DNA of 64,000 nucleotides, taken from assembly GCF_001908275.1 (NCBI RefSeq), contig NZ_CP018620.1, positions 4,836,001 to 4,900,000 of the forward strand, in the 5' to 3' direction. Below the pieces are notes generated by a model. The model did no database searches. It was not told the DNA's origin and worked only from the letters and a program-made list of their open reading frames with translations. Shown piece by piece: positions 34,915 to 45,581 of the stretch (the first letter of the stretch is position 1; every line of letters starts with the position of its first letter). This stretch comes from Paenibacillus xylanexedens (GTDB taxonomy: Bacteria > Bacillota > Bacilli > Paenibacillales > Paenibacillaceae). The position numbers were made by a program, and so were the translations under genes.

Positions 34915-35898
34915 CTAACGATTAGAGCATTTATATTCGAAATAGCCTTGTGCAGCTGCTTCTCTTGCGTCTGTAAACACCTCTTCAGCACGGTAACCAT
35001 TACCACATGTGGAGGGATAGTAGTACTTGATACCCGTTAAAGGATCTACCCCACCTACGATGGCCGTTTTCTTCACAAGTCTGCCTCCACCGATCGCATA
35101 ATTGTTGATCTTTTGGTCACCCACACCTATACCTTGGATAAAGGCCATAATCCCTGTATCGTTAATGGAGTTGTACCAATCTTCCTGCGCAATCAGGGGC
35201 ATCGTAAACGTATAGGAAATACCGTTCTTTCTGGCAAACTCATTATGGCGGTTAATCACATCAGCCAGATCATCCTGCACAGTAGTCACAATCCGGCTTT
35301 GTCTAACTTGCTCAAATACGCTGGTATTCTGAAGTAAAGGAATCTGTGTGCTTGAAGCCAGTTCTTTTTGAAATCCTTCAATCCATTTCCCTGCGTTTGC
35401 GTCATAGGCATATACGTAGTCGTCCAGTGTAAAGTTAATACTGTTACCATTAGAATCTGAATATGTATAAGGTTTCTTGGGGCTCCACACTTGCCTGAAA
35501 GAATCTTCACGGTTACCTGTCATCTCTGTTTCTGTGGACAACATATAATAGCCATCATAATCCAGAATAACCACGGCAGGAATGTAATTAAACATGTTTC
35601 GAATAGCTGCGGGATCATCCTGAATCCCCATATTCAAAGCCATCGTCTGCGTAAATGTCAACAAGGCAAGCTCCTTGTCCGCTCTAACAAACTTGGTTGA
35701 ATCATAACCTGCTTCATCATTTTGTTTCTCATTCTGATGCATCACTGCACCTGCATCCATGACTGCAGTTTGAAGTGCAGATCTGTATCGTTGGCCAAGA
35801 TATTGAGCCTCTTCGGCATCTTGGGTATGGAGTGAGATGATCCAGAAGAGCGGGAAGAAGATCATCACGAATACAATGGATAGCTCAGTAATCTTCAT
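34915..35898 (-). CDS. Single-membrane-segment surface protein of the Tad-like locus
   Basis: Protein of 327 residues, last gene of the Tad-like operon. After MKITELSIV comes one hydrophobic segment (about 6-23), then an exported domain of roughly 300 residues. Glu5 directly before the hydrophobic segment recalls TadE-type pseudopilins, but no leader cleavage site is evident. Only the C-terminus has cysteines (STCGNGY and YKCSNR), which could form a disulfide outside the cell. No known domain was recognised. The ATG overlaps the upstream gene by 14 bases; GGAGGTATGG precedes it. Minor pilin or tip protein is a plausible guess. Confidence 0.75.
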   Translation of the reverse strand: MKITELSIVFVMIFFPLFWIISLHTQDAEEAQYLGQRYRSALQTAVMDAGAVMHQNEKQNDEAGYDSTKFVRADKELALLTFTQTMALNMGIQDDPAAIRNMFNYIPAVVILDYDGYYMLSTETEMTGNREDSFRQVWSPKKPYTYSDSNGNSINFTLDDYVYAYDANAGKWIEGFQKELASSTQIPLLQNTSVFEQVRQSRIVTTVQDDLADVINRHNEFARKNGISYTFTMPLIAQEDWYNSINDTGIMAFIQGIGVGDQKINNYAIGGGRLVKKTAIVGGVDPLTGIKYYYPSTCGNGYRAEEVFTDAREAAAQGYFEYKCSNR

Positions 35899-36436
35899 TG
35901 AGGACCATACCTCCGTATGTTACAAATACTGCTGAAGCCTGAGCCGTACCACTCAACCATTCACGAATGAGCATGGAAGGTGTACGATTGGTATTTTGGA
36001 GCGTCACGGTGAAAAAATCCCCTGTTGTCAACGTATATCTTCGGCCAGGATCATCAACCGGTATCACACCTGAGGATGGGAATAATCTTTCGCGAATCTG
36101 AGCTGAGTAATATCCATCCTGTACAACCTCGTAAGTCCCGGTAAAACTGTTATTGTCCATCGGGTCTGTATAGTGAGGTACATATTTCTTATGTAAATGT
36201 TCCATCGACAACTCATACACATTGCCCGTCTGGGCCAGTTGCTCCTCAAACTCAGCCAACATTCGAGGTGAAATATACCCTTTCGTTCGGACAGCATCAA
36301 CAAAACGTGTAACATTCTGAACAGCCGTCATACGTGCTATATCATCCTGCCGATCGGCTGTTTCAGCAGCTGGGTACACATAGAGCAGAAGGACTGCGAG
36401 CAATACGGCAAGCAGCTTGGATGCGGCATTAATCAA
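35885..36436 (-). CDS. Small exported protein of the Tad-like locus (183 aa)
   Basis: Protein of 183 residues with an N-terminal hydrophobic segment (about 5-24) and a soluble exported domain. Mid-protein it reads VHPHY-like aromatic-rich sequence (KKYVPHYTDP) and later SGVIPVDDPGRRY. No family was recognised. The start is a TTG at 36434-36436 whose bases overlap the stop of the preceding gene (TTGA). Genes this short with one N-terminal membrane helix, following TadB/C-like proteins, often encode pseudopilins or anchors. Confidence 0.7.
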   Translation of the reverse strand: MINAASKLLAVLLAVLLLYVYPAAETADRQDDIARMTAVQNVTRFVDAVRTKGYISPRMLAEFEEQLAQTGNVYELSMEHLHKKYVPHYTDPMDNNSFTGTYEVVQDGYYSAQIRERLFPSSGVIPVDDPGRRYTLTTGDFFTVTLQNTNRTPSMLIREWLSGTAQASAVFVTYGGMVLNEDY

Positions 36437-36831
36437 TTCACACTGGCCCCCTTCCTAAAAGCAATCTTGAGCAGTTCTCCAGTTTCATTTCGTATAAACT
36501 CTGGTCTGTAGGTGGCATCGAGCTGGACAGGAATCGTCGCTGTTTTGCTGACAAGTGGATCGATCACATACGAAGTTCCATCTACCTCCACAGGAATGCC
36601 TGTGCCTGTCATCTGTCTCACGGTATGCAACACTTCGGCACCATTATACTGATACGGATTAGTGGTACGCAGTGTTGTTGTCAGCCGACCTTCCATGCCT
36701 GCTGTTGTCTGTACTCTGTCGGTCAAGGCCGCTGACAAGATCTTAACATTCTGTTGCCCGTACAGGCAGGCTGTCACAAAAAGGACAACCGCCGTACAAA
36801 ACAACATGAGATGCTGGGTATTCCGGGACAT
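36433..36831 (-). CDS. Small exported protein of the Tad-like locus (132 aa)
   Basis: Protein of 132 residues with one hydrophobic segment at about 8-24 and a short exported beta-rich domain. No motif was recognised. A Cys lies within the membrane segment (FVTACLYG), but the lipobox pattern is imperfect (VTAC), so lipidation is possible and uncertain. AGGAG stands ten bases before the ATG. It lies between two other single-helix proteins in an operon with overlapping genes. Confidence 0.7.
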   Translation of the reverse strand: MSRNTQHLMLFCTAVVLFVTACLYGQQNVKILSAALTDRVQTTAGMEGRLTTTLRTTNPYQYNGAEVLHTVRQMTGTGIPVEVDGTSYVIDPLVSKTATIPVQLDATYRPEFIRNETGELLKIAFRKGASVN

Positions 36832-36847
36832 GTTAAACCAACTCCTG

Positions 36848-37333
36848 TCAGGATTGCTGGAAGATCAGCCCTCTTACCACGTTGGAACGGTCTTTTACGA
36901 TAATGGCTTTGAATTTACCACTGGGATTGACATATTGATTGTCTTTTTCACTCATGGTCTGGTTAATAATCCCCACTTTATCGTCAGGAGCAATAACCGA
37001 GCCGTAGTCGGCATTATTGAGATCCTGTGAAATGTTCAATTGATTGCCATACCATTGACCCGCTTTATTTTTACCTGTAATAACTTGAATACCGAACTGA
37101 TCTTTGTCCGCGTATTTACGCAGCGCATTCGTTACCTGTGATCCACTGATGGTTGTTCCGTCATACACCGTAAATGCGGCTTGGGACAACTCGGTTTGGA
37201 TATCAGCAAAATTGTTCTGGGCCGTCTTGGTTGCCTCCTGAGCCGAAATAAACAACAGAACTACAATTGTGATCAAAGCGATTGTTAAAAATATCCCTGC
37301 TGCCACCTTTAAAGCGCTTGATGCATTGTTCAT
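36848..37333 (-). CDS. Pilin-like small membrane protein of the Tad-like locus (161 aa)
   Basis: Protein of 161 residues: MNNASSALKVAAGIFLTIAL leads a long hydrophobic helix (about 8-33) followed by QEATKTAQNNFADIQTELSQ, an amphipathic continuation like that of type IV pilins. The rest is a soluble domain. There is no Gly-x4-Glu prepilin cleavage motif and no long basic leader, so classical prepilin processing is doubtful. It directly follows the TadB/C-like gene, the usual place for pilin genes in compact Tad loci. GGGAGG stands seven bases before the ATG. Confidence 0.72.
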   Translation of the reverse strand: MNNASSALKVAAGIFLTIALITIVVLLFISAQEATKTAQNNFADIQTELSQAAFTVYDGTTISGSQVTNALRKYADKDQFGIQVITGKNKAGQWYGNQLNISQDLNNADYGSVIAPDDKVGIINQTMSEKDNQYVNPSGKFKAIIVKDRSNVVRGLIFQQS

Positions 37334-37395
37334 GATAAATCCTCCCAAGTTATAAGTTATTAAACTATTTCAGGCTGTCACACAGATAAATTGTG

Positions 37396-39462
37396 CTACA
37401 GTTTCTGAATTTGCTCATAATAAATGTTCATCTGCAAGAAGCTCATACCAACCAATGGAATGACCAGATACAGAAAGATAAGGGCGTACATAGGTGTAAA
37501 TCCGATGGTTCTGCCCCATGATGCTTTGACATCAATCATTTTGCTGTACTCCTGCTTGCGTTGTTCAAAATAAAATTCCATCATGCTCTCGAGATCATCG
37601 AAGGCTTCACGTATTGAGATTTTGCCAAGGGCAAGCTGTAATTTATCAACCAGTCGCTGGAACTCGGGCAAACCCGCCTCTTCCTTTAATTGTTCAAGTG
37701 CAAGCTCTGGTCCATGTTCAAAATGCAACAAACATTTTTGCAGCGGGCGTTTGAAAATGACGGCAAATCGATTAAGCCACTCCAATATCTCCTCGACTGA
37801 CATCCGGTCCATCTCACGCAGAATGGATATCACTGTCTGGAATTGATAGATTTCATGTCGCATATCCAACCTTCGCATTTTCCGCTGAAATAACATGAGC
37901 CATACGGGCATGTAGTACCCAGCTCCACCCATAAGAATGGCTATAATCATTTCCCACCAACGTACATATTGCTTGTTATACACCTCAAGTTTCTGCATAA
38001 TGCGCGTGATGGTCTCATTCTGGGTATCAAGGTCCATCTGAACGGGAGATAACTGCTGTAATGCGTTGGCGACTTCTTCGTATGTAGCTCCTCGGTTCAT
38101 TTCTACACTTTTCAGCACGGATTGATCCAACGCTGTTTTTTCCTCAGCTTTCCTGAGATCCGCTTCAGCCATTGCACCAAACATTCGATCATCGCGAATT
38201 GGATCATACAAGATGTGGTTACGTTCAACCTGATGCAACAGCAAGATGCAACCCATTGTAAGGACCAAACAACCTGCGAATAACATCACTCGTCGAATGG
38301 CAAGCCATTCGTATTTCAACTCCGAGCTGCTCTCCCTCATGAGCCGTATCGTTTGACTGTACTGTGCACTGCCAGGTTTCGCTGCAAACAACATCGCCAA
38401 TTTCCGTATGAAGGTCTGCCTGTAAAGAAACTGATCCAACCATGAATGCTTATGCCCTGACCGGTAACGGGTCTCATCGTATTGCTGGAGCCTTTGCAGA
38501 AGCAAATAGGCAAGGATAATGATGACATAGATCGATATTTTGGTAACAAAACCGATTTTGCTGCGATAAAATTCATCCATCGTTGGGAAACTGACTCTGG
38601 CCCAACGTTCGATTGGAGCGGTGAACAATACCGGAGCAAGAGCGATAATATTAAGCCCTTTGAGCAGGTAATCCAATTTATCACGCCGCAAAATCTCCAA
38701 ATGAATCTCCTGAGTTAGGTTACCAAGTCCTTTGAGATAAATAGAACCTTGTGCCCTGTCCTTATCCCCGAACTCCATGACCATATAGGAAACGCCGGCG
38801 AATCCTTTGAGAAAACGGTTGGGAGCCACCTCATAATAACGCTCAAGTGCTTCATTCGGATCTGGAGAAGTTAGAGCTTCGTAGATCAGTCTTACTTGTT
38901 CTGCTGCTTCTCCTGTACCTGCTTCAGCAGCTTCATAGAGCGCTTCCTCAACCATGCCATGTTGATGATACCTATGCCGTACATCCGCAAAGAGATCCAA
39001 CATCTGAACCAGCAACCTTTTCTCCATACGACTGAGGCACATATCCAATACCAGACTGTTTAACACCACAGCACAGAGAATGGATAGTATTACAAAAGCG
39101 ATACCGGGCTGCAGAAAAAACAGAATGACACTAATGCCTCCATAACCTCCAAGAATAATCAGAACCACTATCATCGTTAGTCTGCGAAGTGAAGGTTCAT
39201 CCCCAACATGGCGGAATGAAATACGTTTCTGCACCTGTAGAATATAAGCTGATAGCAGTGGCACTTTCATTCCAAGACGGTAGAACTGCAACAAAATTGA
39301 TCCCAGTCCCTTGAATCCCTTCCCGCTAGGAGCAAAAATCACGCCGGATTGACTTGTTGAACCACCTCCTCTGTGACGTAACATACTTAAAACCAGAAGT
39401 GTGATCAGCAAACCTCCTGCACAAATACTTAATACGAGGAGCAAAAACCATTTAATTGTCAT
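37396..39462 (-). CDS. Double-length TadB/TadC-like inner-membrane platform protein
   Basis: Protein of 688 residues with about eight hydrophobic segments (1-25, about 90-135, 260-280, 305-325, 390-412, 505-530, 657-680). Two halves each contain a cytoplasmic helical region before a membrane segment, as in type II secretion F (GspF/TadB/TadC) proteins. The C-terminal half has the stretch LQLALGKISIREAFDDLESM, which resembles TadC. The length fits a fusion of TadB and TadC, normally two genes. The ATG at 39462 is chosen (GGGGTGAT seven bases upstream); it overlaps the ATPase gene by 11 bases. It should form the assembly platform for the ATPase. Confidence 0.82.
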   Translation of the reverse strand: MTIKWFLLLVLSICAGGLLITLLVLSMLRHRGGGSTSQSGVIFAPSGKGFKGLGSILLQFYRLGMKVPLLSAYILQVQKRISFRHVGDEPSLRRLTMIVVLIILGGYGGISVILFFLQPGIAFVILSILCAVVLNSLVLDMCLSRMEKRLLVQMLDLFADVRHRYHQHGMVEEALYEAAEAGTGEAAEQVRLIYEALTSPDPNEALERYYEVAPNRFLKGFAGVSYMVMEFGDKDRAQGSIYLKGLGNLTQEIHLEILRRDKLDYLLKGLNIIALAPVLFTAPIERWARVSFPTMDEFYRSKIGFVTKISIYVIIILAYLLLQRLQQYDETRYRSGHKHSWLDQFLYRQTFIRKLAMLFAAKPGSAQYSQTIRLMRESSSELKYEWLAIRRVMLFAGCLVLTMGCILLLHQVERNHILYDPIRDDRMFGAMAEADLRKAEEKTALDQSVLKSVEMNRGATYEEVANALQQLSPVQMDLDTQNETITRIMQKLEVYNKQYVRWWEMIIAILMGGAGYYMPVWLMLFQRKMRRLDMRHEIYQFQTVISILREMDRMSVEEILEWLNRFAVIFKRPLQKCLLHFEHGPELALEQLKEEAGLPEFQRLVDKLQLALGKISIREAFDDLESMMEFYFEQRKQEYSKMIDVKASWGRTIGFTPMYALIFLYLVIPLVGMSFLQMNIYYEQIQKL

Positions 39463-41278
39463 GCTGATCACCCCAGTGTTGCTTCATAAACTGTTCAAAT
39501 CTCTCAGCATCCTGTAATGTCATCTGTTCTCGCATATCTATCATGCTTCCAGAGGAGATTGGAGCTGTTGCAACATACACTCCATCTCTGTACTCCACAA
39601 CATTATGAAATGTAAAACCTGCCCTCTCTTCCACGCTATCACCTTGATTCGCACGAGGAAGACATTCCGTAATTCGTTCGATATATCTTCGTCCCTCAGC
39701 ATCTTTCTTCATATGGACATCGAAGTTGATTACACTCACAACCTGCTCCTCAGCAATATGCTCATGCTGGAACATACCTGTCTTGAGCAAGGAATTTCGG
39801 AGGGAGAAGACCAGATCACGAAACGTTTTAGCATGGTGGGTAAACAGGGTGAACAGACTGGCAACCTGAGACATTTGAATCATCCATGCGGCCACCTCAT
39901 CACTCGCAACCTCACCGAGAATATTGACGGTACCATCCGTTTTTTTCTGCAAATCAAGCCCTTGTTGACCTGAAATGTGTTCAGTCTCTCGGAAACTCAA
40001 AATATTACGTCGGCTATAGATCCGTCTTAATTGAAGTTCAAACGCCATCTCCTGTACCCGAAGGGTGTACGATGCATAGATGTGTTTGACCATAGCCATA
40101 AGCAACGTTGTTTTACCAGAACCTTGTGCCCCGGTTACAGCTGTGATCCGGCTTCCTTTCATCAGGTATTGAAGCAGTGTTATTGGCAGATCTGCGTTGT
40201 TACCCGTAATCAACTGTTCAAGTGAAGCATTCGGAATATCGAACTTCCGGACGAAGAACGCCCATGATTCTGCAAAAGGAGGACGAACAACAACGACACG
40301 GGAGCCGTCTTTCATCTCGTTCACCTTGTATCCACTTGCTTCCGACAACTGTCCGGGATAATTGTATTTGTATATATTCTGGCATACCCTTTTCAGTTCA
40401 CGGATGCTTCCGAATGACAGAAAGGATAGATGAATGGACTTACCTTTATAGAAAATCCAGACACTTTCCATGCCGCTAAGCGGTTCTTCATGTGCATCAT
40501 CCTCCAGTCCTTGATCCAGCAAATCATTCCATGAAGCCGGTTTTCGAAGTCCCATATTATGAACATCATCAAGCATACCGCTAACACCACCACTAACGCC
40601 GTCAATACGCTGGTCCCTTATCTCATCAACAACCGAGAATCCTTTATAATGCTGGTAGATACGTTGCACGATAATATCCGTCTTTTCTCTGAATCCAAGC
40701 TCTCGATATTCGCACTCGAACACATACTGAATATCCTCCTCAGAGATATAATAACTTCCTCCATCGTCCGTACCTTCTTCCATTCTCAGCCTTCCCAGAT
40801 CGTAGGTATCAATCATACGGGAGAGTGCATCTACACCGAATTGCTGTCGGTACAGATAAAACACAATCTCGAATCGGTCCTGGATCGTCAGCAAATCTGG
40901 TTCTGTAAACAAAATAACTTCATCTACATTTGATTTGTTCAGCCCTATGCTTCGGGTCAGGAGATCCCCTATCAGATTTTTAACATACGTTTTGTCGCTG
41001 ATACTGCCTGAGACACAGCCCTTCAGCGCTTTTCTCATCTCGGCACGCTGATTAATTCTTCGACGATATTCTTCTTCATGCAGACCCGCATCCGCGAGCT
41101 GACTATGACTAAGCTCATGAAGTGAGTTCTTCACCTTCTCAATCAACATGTCAATCGTGAATGATTCCTGTTCAGGCACACGAGCATTCTTTTCACGAAG
41201 AAACGTTCTATACTTGAACCAGATATAAGTCAGGCACAGAATCAAAATCAAACTTATCCATATGGTATTCCAGAGCAT
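39452..41278 (-). CDS. TadA/CpaF-type secretion ATPase with N-terminal membrane anchor
   Basis: Hexameric pilus/secretion motor of 608 residues. The ATPase core starts near 270: Walker A GAQGSGKT at 383-390, a divergent Asp box (RVQEMAFELQLRR), Walker B-like NILGEVASDE at 452-461 and a His box region FTLFTHHAKT at 476-485. Unlike most CpaF proteins it begins with a hydrophobic helix (residues 6-22), so it is probably membrane-anchored, and it has a 250-residue N-terminal domain rich in charged residues. The ribosome site AGGGGAG lies inside the end of the preceding gene, seven bases from it to this ATG's gene boundary. Confidence 0.88.
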   Translation of the reverse strand: MLWNTIWISLILILCLTYIWFKYRTFLREKNARVPEQESFTIDMLIEKVKNSLHELSHSQLADAGLHEEEYRRRINQRAEMRKALKGCVSGSISDKTYVKNLIGDLLTRSIGLNKSNVDEVILFTEPDLLTIQDRFEIVFYLYRQQFGVDALSRMIDTYDLGRLRMEEGTDDGGSYYISEEDIQYVFECEYRELGFREKTDIIVQRIYQHYKGFSVVDEIRDQRIDGVSGGVSGMLDDVHNMGLRKPASWNDLLDQGLEDDAHEEPLSGMESVWIFYKGKSIHLSFLSFGSIRELKRVCQNIYKYNYPGQLSEASGYKVNEMKDGSRVVVVRPPFAESWAFFVRKFDIPNASLEQLITGNNADLPITLLQYLMKGSRITAVTGAQGSGKTTLLMAMVKHIYASYTLRVQEMAFELQLRRIYSRRNILSFRETEHISGQQGLDLQKKTDGTVNILGEVASDEVAAWMIQMSQVASLFTLFTHHAKTFRDLVFSLRNSLLKTGMFQHEHIAEEQVVSVINFDVHMKKDAEGRRYIERITECLPRANQGDSVEERAGFTFHNVVEYRDGVYVATAPISSGSMIDMREQMTLQDAERFEQFMKQHWGDQHDN

Positions 41279-41285
41279 CGGAGGT

Positions 41286-42116
41286 TCAGGCTCCCCTTTC
41301 CAGCCTCTTCAGAACTGTGCGCATACCTGCACCGTCCATAATCAGGCGAGCGAGTTCGCTCATGCTTGCAGCAAAACTCCCTTTACGAATATCCTTATCC
41401 TCAGTCAAACTTTCCAACTGCAAGTATCTAGCGACATCTCGCCGATTCATTGCATCCAGGTATCCGGTTGTGTACGGTATCGCAGATATCGTGCCTTTAT
41501 ATCTGAACTGGCGCCGAATATTGGAAAGCGTTGCACGGGAATGCAAATCGTATTTGTTAATGACGACATGTATATTCTTATTGTTCATTCGTTCTGGCAG
41601 GATCTCTTCAAAGAACAACTCCAGATTTCGCATATTTTGATCGAGATTAATGACAACATAGTCCGCCTGTTGCAGCTTGAGCTGTGAATCAACACCAGCA
41701 TGATCCGCATCCAGAAGAACCAGATCATAATACTCGTTAGCTACATTTAGCAGCTTTTTCACTGTCTCACCATGTTCCTGCGGGGAACGTTCCATCTCAT
41801 CAATTCTTCCGGTTAGGAAATCAAGTCTTTCCTTCAGAAGTGGCTTGGTATAATCCCTGAGATTGTGCTTATTCAGACTGCCGCTCGAATGCAGCCGTTC
41901 AATCGCATCCCAGCCACCCTCTTCGAAGGAGAACATAAAATCCGCTGAATCCGTATCTTTGGATGGTAGAGCAGCTTCTGTGCCAGTTCCGGCAAGGCCT
42001 GCATTAACAAGTAACACTCTTGTTCTGTAGTGAAGTGCCATCGCATAAGCACTAATTAATGTATTTGATGTGCAACCTGTTCCTGCAAAAGGACTCCAAA
42101 AGGTAATGGTGCTCAT
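41286..42116 (-). CDS. CpaE/TadZ-like atypical P-loop protein, second copy
   Basis: Protein of 276 residues with a MinD/ParA-like fold: N-terminal strand TITFWSPFAGTGCTSNT, a Walker B-like YYDLVLLDADHAG, and VHVVINKYD near 187. The Walker A lysine is replaced (Cys15 in GTGCTS) and the signature lysine is also missing, as in many TadZ proteins that localise pilus machines rather than hydrolyse ATP quickly. It overlaps the preceding gene by four bases (ATGA). Confidence 0.8.
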   Translation of the reverse strand: MSTITFWSPFAGTGCTSNTLISAYAMALHYRTRVLLVNAGLAGTGTEAALPSKDTDSADFMFSFEEGGWDAIERLHSSGSLNKHNLRDYTKPLLKERLDFLTGRIDEMERSPQEHGETVKKLLNVANEYYDLVLLDADHAGVDSQLKLQQADYVVINLDQNMRNLELFFEEILPERMNNKNIHVVINKYDLHSRATLSNIRRQFRYKGTISAIPYTTGYLDAMNRRDVARYLQLESLTEDKDIRKGSFAASMSELARLIMDGAGMRTVLKRLERGA

Positions 42117-42826
42117 GCTCTCATCCTCTCTGCTTCTTTCATCGCACGGCGACTACGAACACTTTCCCAACCTGTTAACTGCTCGACCACGCGACACAAC
42201 GATTTTTTGTAATTTCGTGACAAAGGTCCAAGATGAACTCGGCGATGATGCTCATTCTCAAGCTTAACCGCCGCTGTTAACTCATCCCATGGAAGCACTA
42301 AGGATTCTCCTGTCCACACAAACGGACTGCCGTCCAGATACGCCCACAGATAACGAGCTTCAAGCTTGCAGTCAACCCCGTTAATTAAGAGCCGCTGAAA
42401 TGACAGCTCACCCGGCAATGACTGTTCTTCAAGCAACCGCTTCAACCAGCCCTTGCCACGTTCCAGATTGTAACGCTCATAATCACTCACCCAGACTCTT
42501 ACATCAGCGGTTAGCCAGAGATTACGTGAAGCAAAATGTGAAGTCTCCATGTCATATAACACATAATCATAACTGTCCAATCGCTCTCCATTTACTTCAA
42601 GATGATTCTCTACAGCTGCCGAAGTGACAAAATGACAAGCGATATCAAATCCTTCAAATTCCGTAATTCGCAAAGACTGCTGACCGTCACCTACACCGTA
42701 CCCATACTTCTGTTGTAAGGTTCCATCTACGAGCAAGACCTTGTTGCCTGTCGAAGCCAATATCTTGCAAAGATATAACATCAGATCATTCTTCTCACAT
42801 AAACCCGCAAAGATCCATGTATACAT
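42113..42826 (-). CDS. CpaE/TadZ-like atypical P-loop protein, first copy
   Basis: Protein of 237 residues of MinD/ParA-like layout: TWIFAGLCEKNDLMLYLCKI in place of the P-loop, KVLLVDGT, then YDYVLYDMET as the Walker B strand. Of the P-loop only one lysine (Lys12) is retained; the flanking Gly and Thr are lost, so nucleotide binding is doubtful. It probably forms a pair with the following CpaE-like protein. GGGAG stands about eleven bases before the ATG. No wider family could be named. Confidence 0.72.
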   Translation of the reverse strand: MYTWIFAGLCEKNDLMLYLCKILASTGNKVLLVDGTLQQKYGYGVGDGQQSLRITEFEGFDIACHFVTSAAVENHLEVNGERLDSYDYVLYDMETSHFASRNLWLTADVRVWVSDYERYNLERGKGWLKRLLEEQSLPGELSFQRLLINGVDCKLEARYLWAYLDGSPFVWTGESLVLPWDELTAAVKLENEHHRRVHLGPLSRNYKKSLCRVVEQLTGWESVRSRRAMKEAERMRA

Positions 42827-42903
42827 AGATGTTACAACTCCCTTCTATTTCTTTAAACCTTTGTTATTTGAATTATCTTAATGTGAAAACCTTAGATTAA
42901 TCT

Positions 42904-43923
42904 CTACTCTCCACCCGTTAGCAAGCTCTGCTGTTCTGTTTGTGAAGCTTCAGCAGGATCATTTACGCTTCCAGAATTAGCTCCTGCCCCGTTTCCTGAA
43001 CCATCATTCCACATCACTCCATCCGATGTTACCGGATTATTTGCAGATGGACGACTGTTATAAGTAACTGAGGATTGGGCCACATCCTGTTCCACTCCTT
43101 TTGATGGTGCTGTCACGGAGGCGGCCAGTGAACTTTCAAGCGAACTTCGCACTTGTCTGGATAACTCCTGTTCGGCTCGTCGAACAATATTCGGATCACT
43201 CTCCAGCAGTTTCAACACTTCTGAATTGGCAGGATACGTCGGGATTGCAGGTGTCTGAAACTGTGGTTCTACATAGGTTAAGGCATAGATTGAAGCTTTA
43301 TGTAAATAGGCATCTACAATTGCACTTGAGAGTGACAGAATCTCTTCCTCCGTCATCGTAATCCATAAGGTAGCTGCATTGAGTCGTTCCACTTTCTTCT
43401 TCGATAAAAGAACATAGTCTTGTCCGGTAGGGAATTGGATACGAACATCAATAATATCTCCCTTAACAAGTGAGGACGGCAGTAATACAACTTGCAGCTC
43501 TCGATTTCTTAAATCGGGCGGAGCCGGTGTATCCTCATATACCATCTCGGTGGTAATGGCTGTTCCTTTTTTTAACTCTATTTTGGCCACTTGGCCTTCC
43601 ATTTGCTTGGTACTGGACCAGAGATTTCGTGGTGCTTGTGCATCCGGAACAGCAATGAGCTTCAGATCCTCCGGTAATATCGGTTCACCTGCTTCAATAT
43701 CCCGAATCGTAACCCATCCTTGTGCGCCCGAATCCCATTGTTGCTTTAACTCAGCTTCCCTTTCCTCATATGCCGATAAATACCGGGCTTCTACGGCTGA
43801 CCTGACATCCCCCATCGTTTTGACATTGTAAATAACATATCCTCCGAACACCAACCCTACAGCTCCTGCTCCGATAAGTCCGGCATAGATCAGTTGACGG
43901 CTTTGTTTTCTTAATTTAGACAA
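42904..43923 (-). CDS. SAF-domain membrane protein (CpaB/RcpC-like)
   Basis: Protein of 339 residues: membrane segment at about 12-32, then a coiled charged stretch and a SAF domain (WVTIRDIEAGEPILPEDLKL, GTAITTEMVYED) like that of CpaB/RcpC of Tad pilus systems. The Ser/Asn/Gly-rich C-terminal 70 residues are low in complexity. In Gram-negative bacteria CpaB works with the secretin; with one membrane here it may sit in the wall or act as an envelope stalk (inference). It lies directly downstream of the kinase-fusion gene. Confidence 0.83.
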   Translation of the reverse strand: MSKLRKQSRQLIYAGLIGAGAVGLVFGGYVIYNVKTMGDVRSAVEARYLSAYEEREAELKQQWDSGAQGWVTIRDIEAGEPILPEDLKLIAVPDAQAPRNLWSSTKQMEGQVAKIELKKGTAITTEMVYEDTPAPPDLRNRELQVVLLPSSLVKGDIIDVRIQFPTGQDYVLLSKKKVERLNAATLWITMTEEEILSLSSAIVDAYLHKASIYALTYVEPQFQTPAIPTYPANSEVLKLLESDPNIVRRAEQELSRQVRSSLESSLAASVTAPSKGVEQDVAQSSVTYNSRPSANNPVTSDGVMWNDGSGNGAGANSGSVNDPAEASQTEQQSLLTGGE

Positions 43924-43947
43924 AAGAGGCTCTCCTTTCGTAATCTT

Positions 43948-45426
43948 CTAATCATGTACTTTCCTTCTTGAAAAGAATGAACGTTTCTTGGGCTGCTGTG
44001 CCATCATATGCGTTAAAATATGAGAAAACACTTTATCCATCTGTGCGTCCTTGTCAAAAGGATCAATATGTAACGGCAGACCATATACACTCGATGTATC
44101 CAGAGCTTTACGAATGCGCTGAACAGCCTCACTTGCTGCCAAGGGCAGACAATATATCCATTTCTCTTGTGGATACCGATGATGTGATCGAACAAAAGCA
44201 CCAATCTCCGCTTGTCTCCATTCGGCACCTGAGCCTATAACAATTGGCAGATCTGCACGCAGGAATTCTTCCAGCCGGTTCTGGTCCTGACCACTACCGA
44301 GATCCATCACGATGAACTGATAACTCCCCCCAAGCAAGGACAAAATATCCGCTCGCCCGGATTGTTTCCAATAATGCACACCATCCACTGCAAACTGTCT
44401 GCCTGCTGGCACCGGTTTACCCGCTTGAGCGATTTGTTGAATTCTTGCAAAGGATTGAGAGCGAGGTGACATTTCAATCACAGCTACTTTGAAGTTTTGC
44501 CTTTCGAGATAATGACTGATAGCTATAGCCGTGTGGGTAACCCCTACACCAGATGAAGCACCAGTCAGGGCAATAACTCTTGTTCCCCCATTCAAGGTCA
44601 TGGTTGTATCTCCACCGGGCGTTGTTCCGCCGGGTATGCGGAGCAGTTCTTTCCGAACCTCATCGGCAGATTGGAATCGCTCTTCGGCATTATACCTTAA
44701 CAGTCTTCTCGCCACAGGGATGTATGTCCGCGGAACATCACTCCGGATAGAGCTTTCCACACCCTGAATCCATTCCGTATACGCACCACTTGTCATAAGA
44801 TAAAGGAGCAATGCTCCGAGCCCATATAGATCTGAACGCGCATCGGTCTGACCCGCGCCATACTGTTCTGGAGCGGCAAAACCAGCGGTTCCCAACTTAA
44901 CGGTATCTTCAGCACTTTGCGGTTTGTAACTTCTGGCGATGCCAAAATCAATTAATCTTACTTCATGTTCCGGCGTGATCATGATGTTTGATGGTTTCAG
45001 ATCCCTATAGATAACAGGTGGATTCAGATTATGCAAATAACTCAACACATCGAGCAATTGAAGTACAAGCTCCGTCAACTGCTCCATCGGGATCTTCCCA
45101 CGACACTGTTTGAAATACTCACTGAGCGTTAACCCGTCGATGTATTCCATCACCAAGTATGTGTATCCGTCTTCATCCGGGACAAAAAAATCAACAATTT
45201 GCGGCAATCTTGGATGGCGAAGTGATGTCAGAAGAGCGGCTTCCGTCTCCATACTGCCTTCATATGGCATAATCGTTACACTTTCTTTAATTGCCCATAT
45301 CTTGCCCGGCAACTTCAGATCCTCCGCCTCGTATACATGGCTCATTCCGCCTGTTCCCAGAATGGATACGATACGATATCTACCTCCCAGCAGGCTTCCG
45401 CGTTCCAGCCTGGCCGGATGTCTCAT
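43948..45426 (-). CDS. Ser/Thr protein kinase fused to a CpaE/MinD-like domain
   Basis: Protein of 492 residues. Residues 15-265 are a eukaryotic-type kinase domain with all key residues: GTGGMSHV (24-31), Lys47 in WAIKE, the YRDLKPSN loop (140-147), DFG (160-162) and APE in GFAAPEQYG. A short Gly/Thr linker leads to a MinD/CpaE-like domain (about 282-480): IALTGASSGVGVTHTA with the Walker lysine replaced by Val296, KVAVIEMS, and FIVMDLGSG as the Walker B strand. The C-terminus is basic (KKRSFFSRRKVHD). No extracellular sensor or PASTA domain. The ATG at 45426 follows AAGGAGG. It heads the Tad-like operon, so it probably regulates pilus assembly by phosphorylation. Confidence 0.87.
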   Translation of the reverse strand: MRHPARLERGSLLGGRYRIVSILGTGGMSHVYEAEDLKLPGKIWAIKESVTIMPYEGSMETEAALLTSLRHPRLPQIVDFFVPDEDGYTYLVMEYIDGLTLSEYFKQCRGKIPMEQLTELVLQLLDVLSYLHNLNPPVIYRDLKPSNIMITPEHEVRLIDFGIARSYKPQSAEDTVKLGTAGFAAPEQYGAGQTDARSDLYGLGALLLYLMTSGAYTEWIQGVESSIRSDVPRTYIPVARRLLRYNAEERFQSADEVRKELLRIPGGTTPGGDTTMTLNGGTRVIALTGASSGVGVTHTAIAISHYLERQNFKVAVIEMSPRSQSFARIQQIAQAGKPVPAGRQFAVDGVHYWKQSGRADILSLLGGSYQFIVMDLGSGQDQNRLEEFLRADLPIVIGSGAEWRQAEIGAFVRSHHRYPQEKWIYCLPLAASEAVQRIRKALDTSSVYGLPLHIDPFDKDAQMDKVFSHILTHMMAQQPKKRSFFSRRKVHD

Positions 45427-45451
45427 ACCAATTCCTCCTTCAATACACAAC

Positions 45452-45522
45452 AAAAAAGGGAAAGCTTCACCGAAGAAGAACAGACCGGATATCCGGTTTC
45501 GTTCACTTCGGGATGCTTTCCC
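45452..45522 (-). terminator. Long terminator-like leader hairpin before the kinase gene
   Basis: On the minus strand GGGAAAGC (45515-45522) pairs with GCTTTCCC (45458-45465), with inner stems CCGAAG/CTTCGG, GAAC/GUUC and ACCGG/CCGGU, followed by six T. Because a promoter lies upstream and the ribosome site 15-20 bases downstream, it could be an attenuator in the kinase leader. It could also simply end transcription from the methyltransferase gene whose stop is 130 bp upstream. Confidence 0.65.
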
Positions 45523-45551
45523 TCAGGTTTGTTATGGTTAATATTGGTATC

Positions 45552-45581
45552 ATTATAGTACAGGCAGGAATAGATTGTAAA
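45552..45581 (-). promoter_or_regulatory. Sigma-A-type promoter of the Tad-like operon
   Basis: On the minus strand TTTACA (45576-45581), an 18-bp spacer and TATAAT (45552-45557). The predicted start lies about 120 bases upstream of the kinase ATG, with the leader hairpin in between. Confidence 0.65.

Follow-up and report, generated by a model that had tools for sequence, protein, structure and literature searches.

A kinase-headed Tad-like locus of Paenibacillus xylanexedens and its co-occurrence with DUF5704 proteins

Tad/Flp pilus systems combine a CpaF-type ATPase, a SAF-domain protein, ParA/CpaE-type proteins, a polytopic platform and small single-helix proteins in a compact operon, and a prepilin peptidase is encoded within many Tad loci. 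The same core, with a candidate protein in the place of the platform, is found in a run of ten minus-strand genes (g1 to g10) at positions 34915-45426 of a 64,000-nucleotide stretch (the window; positions 4836001-4900000 of contig C1) of the 7.1 Mb genome of the soil bacterium Paenibacillus xylanexedens. Unlike Tad/Flp systems, this locus has an N-terminal hydrophobic helix on its ATPase, a single and very divergent platform candidate, ParA-like proteins devoid of a P-loop, a Ser/Thr kinase at its head, no prepilin motif, and a partner module made of SLH and DUF5704 proteins. Its most probable identity, to which we assign a probability of roughly 0.6, is that of a wall-associated Tad-like assembly machine of the cytoplasmic membrane, forming a branch of its own, with DUF5704 as its partner or cargo.

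The accessible parts of PMC3012674 and PMC8370563 refer to Flp pilus genes of Paenibacillus in no more than general terms. The accessible part of PMC5072692 reports two pilus-like loci in another Paenibacillus, not equated here with the window locus, and gene deletions that left motility unaffected. Among the papers listed from the openly accessible literature, none describes a Tad locus headed by a kinase, subscription papers and preprints lying outside that scope. The other systems to be compared are the type VII secretion variants T7SSg and T7SSh, which, according to the accessible part of PMC11217815 (Garrett, Higginson and Palmer 2024), are always located beside Tad genes, a link considered there as possibly coincidental. 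The Tad-type genes of the EssC-linked relatives fetched in the present work belong to the same family as those of the window. Unlike T7SSg and T7SSh as described in that part, the window locus is free of type VII genes and its head is a kinase with intact motifs; profile searches found no EssC-type or WXG100 gene among the ten, the WXG100 matches of the genome being elsewhere.

A Tad-family locus kept in order

From g1 to g10, the intergenic gaps measure 24, 77, -4, 7, -20, 62, 16, -4 and -14 bases, in keeping with the compact locus proposed by the initial annotation, an earlier reading of this DNA. That annotation counted nine genes in a row; the open reading frames at this place number ten. 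A first set of named relatives, made up of the 80 best among 147 confirmed loci, was searched with tblastn: g5, g6, g7 and g9 were present in 80/80, g2 and g3 in 79/80, g10 in 78/80 and g4 in 77/80, the two relatives without a g10 match (L042 and L083) being short stretches. Gene order is constant throughout this set, save that L064 and L074 carry an additional g7 behind g9. Because g5, g6, g7 and g9 occur in all 80 relatives in a kept order, the clustering is not due to chance, and the genes travel together in these relatives, which answers the synteny check suggested by the initial annotation. Among the named loci, the closest come from Paenibacillus xylanexedens and from Paenibacillus sp. 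PAMC 26794 (99% identity for g5). In most of the set the locus is bordered by an ABC-F and a 2'-O-methyltransferase-like gene, both named by look. Among 55 more distant loci, conservation is highest for g7 (mean identity 72.8%, 54/55 loci), the g5 ATPase averages 61.0%, while g8 averages 26.7% and was found in 34/55.

The same genome carries a second, canonical Tad locus (L086, C1 ~2.508-2.517 Mb), in which CpaE, TadA, TadB and TadC stand in a row with their own prepilin peptidase. There, the P-loop of CpaE is intact, TadB and TadC are separate proteins with T2SSF matches, and two open reading frames carry a prepilin-type pattern, whereas the window branch has mostly lost the P-loop and has a single platform candidate, and its g7, g9 and g10 lack the pattern. 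These comparisons argue for a Tad-family motor set on a branch separate from the canonical locus. The Tad kinship first proposed is upheld, but the picture of a plain Tad/Flp locus is not, given the separate canonical locus, the lost P-loops, the absent prepilin motif, the single and very divergent platform candidate and the hydrophobic helix at the start of the ATPase. The product could be a pilus, an adhesin or a secretion device, as the initial annotation proposed. None of the ten proteins gave a secretin family match in profile searches, and there was no sign of a second membrane, as already anticipated by the initial annotation. Canonical-type CpaE and TadA genes come immediately after the divergent machine in two relatives, L195 and L078, the latter having TadB and TadC as well.

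Co-occurrence of the platform candidate with DUF5704

In several relatives, two genes for exported proteins lie 3' of g10: the product of one begins with an SLH or copper-amine-oxidase domain, and that of the other is a large DUF5704 protein. Of 197 family genomes, 106 are matched by the g6 profile and 101 by DUF5704, all of the latter within the 106 (Fisher p 9e-51, a value that ignores relatedness); DUF5704 without g6 occurs in 0/197. Four of the five family genomes that hold g6 alone have the most distant g6 proteins (E 5e-77 to 5e-74), and in the fifth (G117) a 335-amino-acid open reading frame behind an SLH-type gene matches the DUF5704-protein profile at 1.5e-26. Six genera (genus labels g2, g3, g5, g12, g13 and g17, distinct from the gene names) include genomes with both and genomes with neither. 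In a sample of 299 genomes of the class, g6 was matched in 29 and DUF5704 in 28, the same 28 genomes, of which 22 were already in the family sample and six come from three other families; the remaining g6 match, in G291 (E 4e-4, 18.6 bits), was judged to be due to chance. The co-occurrence of g6 and DUF5704 in the genomes compared is a new observation, and no paper naming DUF5704 was found in the open PubMed Central literature.

The two genes are not necessarily neighbours. In 16 of 20 genomes, that of the window included, a distance of over 500 kb separates the listed DUF5704 matches from g6; these 20 were hand-picked for having both matches on one large contig, and two of them (G050 and G140) have further unlisted matches. 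The window genome contains two SLH/DUF5704 pairs, at C1 ~1.06 Mb (L112) and C1 ~6.13 Mb (L113), both more than 1.2 Mb from the locus, and positive genomes hold 1 to 8 DUF5704 matches each. DUF5704 proteins are about 1,100 amino acids long, with a variable N-terminal part and a conserved C-terminal half. Both copies of the window genome have an N-terminal hydrophobic, signal-like segment and Big_2 Ig-like domains, and their identity per 100 residues is 14-47% in the first 600 residues and 74-88% after. The protein ends in [TP]H in 118 of 120 listed relatives (out of 220 found) and in 21/27 complete DUF5704 open reading frames of the fetched loci; the next most uniform end among the locus proteins is that of g9, DY in 128/170. 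Such an architecture would suit a protein for display, whose outer part varies while its docking part stays fixed. Arrays of SLH/DUF5704 pairs stand beside long RHS-like proteins (by look) and an EssC-like gene in L114-L117 and L119, whose genomes have 7 or 8 DUF5704 matches. A far-off branch of the machine (L087-L090) is found in genomes without a DUF5704 match, and in 2/4 of these loci the fetched stretch has an EssC-like match at its border.

Components of the putative machine

The g5 protein is a CpaF/TadA-family ATPase, as first annotated. Its best relative in the PDB is CpaF (expectation value, E, 2.5e-52), HHalign matches it to canonical TadA at 9.9e-18, the Walker A pattern is found in 178/178 of its relatives, and the T2SSE profile scores 24.4 bits for a cut-off of 24.9 (24.9 in the genome search). 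A hydrophobic segment covers residues 1-19, none being seen in the canonical TadA of the same genome, and g5 is probably membrane-anchored. The g6 protein has eight hydrophobic segments, and those of its N half are spaced (10, 101, 124, 269) like those of canonical TadC (1, 90, 111, 264). HHalign matches this N half to canonical TadB over 232 columns (1.9e-4) and to canonical TadC over 190 columns (4.6e-4), the best decoy reaching 3.4e-3; the C half is at decoy level with TadB (0.0061) and TadC (0.28), as are the two halves of g6 with each other (0.2). Two-row alignments of TadB and TadC gave no HHalign signal with g6, and larger sets gave a weak one. There is no T2SSF among the 25 of 34 Pfam families listed for 27 g6 members, the families outside this listing being single-member matches with E above ~0.19, and the genome-wide profile search returned no PF00482 (T2SSF) match at g6. 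Of the TadB/TadC-like platform claimed by the initial annotation, the weak likeness of the N half stands, while the listed Pfam families offer no T2SSF. It appears that g6 is probably a one-piece, very divergent TadB/TadC-like protein, and it may serve as the platform.

The locus is headed by a kinase fusion, as initially described. The g1 protein matches Pkinase at 2.4e-36 (and CbiA weakly, 19.3 bits for a cut-off of 25.4; a TTG at 45453 is an alternative start), and the catalytic motifs RDxKxxN and DFG are intact in 129/129 kinase heads of this type, a domain and motifs common to PknB-type Ser/Thr kinases. Unlike these, g1 has no PASTA part recognised by profile searches and is fused to a degenerate TadZ-like domain (P domain). 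HHalign matches this P domain to canonical CpaE at 4.3e-6, and to its counterpart in g1 proteins with another head at 1.2e-38; GxGKT has been kept in only 1 of 148 P domains. The two proteins annotated as CpaE/TadZ-like, g3 and g4, are indeed matched to canonical CpaE by HHalign (Table 1) and yield weak AAA_31/CbiA profile matches only. No P-loop motif is present in the g3 of the window, and no P-loop lysine in the aligned rows of g4. The kinship of g1, g3 and g4 with CpaE is supported by these alignments, and all three may be regarded as putative ParA/TadZ-like pseudo-ATPases. The CpaB-like SAF protein of the initial annotation, g2, is above the cut-off for SAF and matches the CpaB model TIGR03177 at 4.5e-10 (39.2 bits, under its cut-off of 71).

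One N-terminal hydrophobic segment is found in each of g7, g8, g9 and g10, the four single-helix exported proteins already noted. AlphaFold models g7 as a helix spanning residues 2-51 followed by a small mixed alpha/beta head (predicted local distance difference test score 82.7, predicted template modelling score 0.57). Relatives of g7 are often labelled 'ABC transporter permease' in databases, seemingly a wrong name for a one-helix protein, and tandem g7 genes, two or three copies, are found in L083, L092-L094, L099 and L117, which are mostly other-headed or type VII-linked. The prepilin-type pattern occurs in 0/178 g7, 1/167 g8, 0/176 g9 and 0/175 g10 relatives; the same test is passed by two of the three open reading frames that follow canonical TadC in the window genome. 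The only A24 prepilin peptidase match of this genome lies at the canonical Tad locus (C1:2515980-2516285), in line with the earlier remark that the window contains none. The absence of the peptidase was considered as a proof of an uncleaved pilin and rejected: the A24-negative family genomes (2/197, G017 and G088) are also without g6. An A24 match is present in all six g6-positive genomes outside the family. Promoter-like sites overall are no commoner than in shuffled sequence (20 observed against 25.9), which is to be kept in mind for the promoter candidate of Table 1.

Table 1. Positions in the window of the ten genes and of one promoter candidate
Feature	Description	Positions	Strand	Basis
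promoter	sigma-70-like promoter candidate, 5' of g1	45552..45581	-	TTTACA-18-TATAAT, 11/12
g1	Ser/Thr protein kinase with a C-terminal ParA/TadZ-like domain that lacks the P-loop lysine	43948..45426	-	Pkinase, HHalign
g2	CpaB/RcpC-like SAF-domain protein, one hydrophobic segment (12-30)	42904..43923	-	SAF 2.4e-8
g3	degenerate ParA/CpaE-like protein	42113..42826	-	HHalign to canonical CpaE 2.7e-7
g4	degenerate ParA/CpaE-like protein	41286..42116	-	HHalign to canonical CpaE 3.1e-7
g5	ATPase of the TadA/CpaF family, hydrophobic helix at its N-terminus	39452..41278	-	CpaF match, HHalign, Walker A
g6	691-amino-acid polytopic membrane protein, probable fused TadB/TadC-like platform	37396..39471	-	HHalign, hydrophobic-segment spacing
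g7	pilin-like, one long N-terminal helix, without prepilin motif	36848..37333	-	AlphaFold, motif scan
g8	fast-evolving single-helix protein	36433..36831	-	open reading frame list, hydrophobic segment
g9	single-helix exported protein	35885..36436	-	open reading frame list, hydrophobic segment
g10	single-helix exported protein, largest of four	34915..35898	-	open reading frame list, hydrophobic segment

Exchangeable heads, type VII neighbours and the choice between explanations

The head domain of g1 is exchanged between relatives. In a second set of 80 further loci, chosen by hand from g6-positive genomes mostly outside the genus of the window, the head is a kinase in 51, another domain ('receiver-like') in 7, the P domain alone in 3 and none recognised in 19. 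Among loci labelled as having no recognised head, L072 and L259 show weak matches and L046 is a cut locus. The 75 kinase heads counted in the first set include L083, actually other-headed, which was reassigned in the tree; this same protein was part of the kinase hidden Markov model. 'Receiver-like' is a label given by look: Pfam has no match for the heads of L092, L122 and L117, and HHalign with canonical CpaE matched 35 columns of the P domain only (0.0017). An EssC-like gene was found on the fetched stretch in 0/80 loci of the first set and in 4 of the second, and an SLH-type or DUF5704 gene in 29 of the second. EssC-type and WXG100 genes stand at the locus in relatives such as L092 and L117, and the order in L092, L093 and L091/L122 (a single locus covered by two overlapping stretches) is an EssC-like gene, two small genes, an other-headed g1 relative, then g2 onwards. 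The espG and yuk labels were given by position and mutual likeness, Pfam having no match for the two tested. On a quick tree of 108 of 174 usable rows, computed with no mixture model and carrying a long-branch warning, the kinase label changes state 5 times, the receiver label 4 times and the type VII label 5 times (9 changes for head states when two P-only rows are removed), and the type VII link appears to arise in separate branches. According to the accessible part of PMC11217815, TshM ends in a helix and resembles kinases to some degree, its family being unclear. By position and layout, the other-headed g1 relative, which has a C-terminal hydrophobic stretch, may correspond to TshM, accessions being uncompared. 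The window genome has a type VII-like cluster standing alone at C1 3473397-3482290 (L258:1397-10290), ~1.4 Mb from the window, with an EssC-like ATPase, WXG100 and a von Willebrand-like open reading frame (by look).

Several explanations compete with a Tad-like assembly machine of its own branch. The most serious, though still doubtful, is a pseudopilus piston like that of type II secretion, in which Sec would export DUF5704 and the machine would push it through or onto the wall with no long filament. The signal-like segment of both DUF5704 copies, the tight co-occurrence of this protein with the machine, its near-invariant C-terminus as a possible recognition tag and the missing prepilin motif of g7 are all consistent with this scheme; yet the transport of DUF5704 would itself be an assumption, and the varying number of DUF5704 matches, together with their sometimes remote location, fits it poorly. 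It is rather unlikely that the locus encodes an ordinary Tad/Flp pilus, merely diverged, that relies in trans on the peptidase encoded at the canonical locus: the TadA, CpaB and TadZ relatives are present and the genome does encode the peptidase, but the prepilin pattern is nearly absent from g7-g10, the P-loops are degenerate and the platform candidate is in one piece. A role as part of type VII secretion, along the lines of T7SSg/T7SSh, is suggested by the EssC-like FtsK ATPase and WXG100 genes found next to the operon or in between its genes in several relatives at separate places of the tree. The scarcity of EssC-like genes in both sets of loci and the distance of the window genome's own type VII-like cluster make it improbable. 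A competence role of Flp pili has been proposed for Micrococcus luteus (work cited in the accessible part of PMC8370563), but a DNA-uptake or sporulation-related device is very improbable here, as profile searches recognised no competence or sporulation gene among the ten and the locus has a patchy distribution in the class sample.

Several points nevertheless weigh against the favoured machine. The likeness of g6 to TadB/TadC is weak. No signal was obtained with a cleaned PilC set (0.092), but canonical TadB (0.022) and TadC (0.0028) themselves, used as positive controls, gave weak signals, so that PilC is not useful as a test for g6. The pseudo-ATPase assignment of g1, g3 and g4 stands on the absent lysine, and GK[TS] occurs within the first 70 residues of 13/170 g3 and 4/177 g4 proteins. 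No pilin was among the listed PDB matches of the g7 model. All 106 g6-positive family genomes hold a prepilin peptidase match, and an involvement of this enzyme is therefore possible. Finally, the relatedness of genomes makes the co-occurrence points non-independent, co-occurrence is no proof of contact, and DUF5704 is also listed from Metabacillus, Priestia and Bacillus, relatives that lie outside the survey of co-occurrence with g6.

For the wall-associated Tad-like machine, one can propose a model in which the CpaF-like ATPase g5 drives the one-piece platform g6, which would raise or polymerise the long-helix g7 with the help of g8-g10 and without prepilin cleavage. The putative pseudo-ATPases g1, g3 and g4 would provide a scaffold or position the machine, which would be turned on or off by the g1 kinase domain. 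Outside the membrane, the CpaB-like g2 would meet a wall module composed of the SLH- or copper-amine-oxidase-domain protein and DUF5704, the latter being displayed, pulled or pushed through the wall, possibly in physical contact with the machine, for an adhesive or competitive role at the cell surface. A broader and more speculative proposal is that these loci define a distinct class of single-membrane, uncleaved-pilin machine of spore-forming Gram-positive bacteria, built on pseudo-ATPase scaffolds and with heads that can be exchanged (a kinase or another, perhaps receiver-like, domain), in which the SLH/DUF5704 module replaces the secretin and which in some lineages forms a single apparatus with type VII secretion.

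The finding gives DUF5704 its first genetic partner and provides a first handle on what the machine does. It also bears on the question of coincidence raised in the accessible part of PMC11217815, since the same machine also exists without type VII genes beside it, and the association with type VII systems is seen in branches apart from one another. In terms of mechanism, it suggests a way for a pilus-type motor to work through a thick wall without a secretin.

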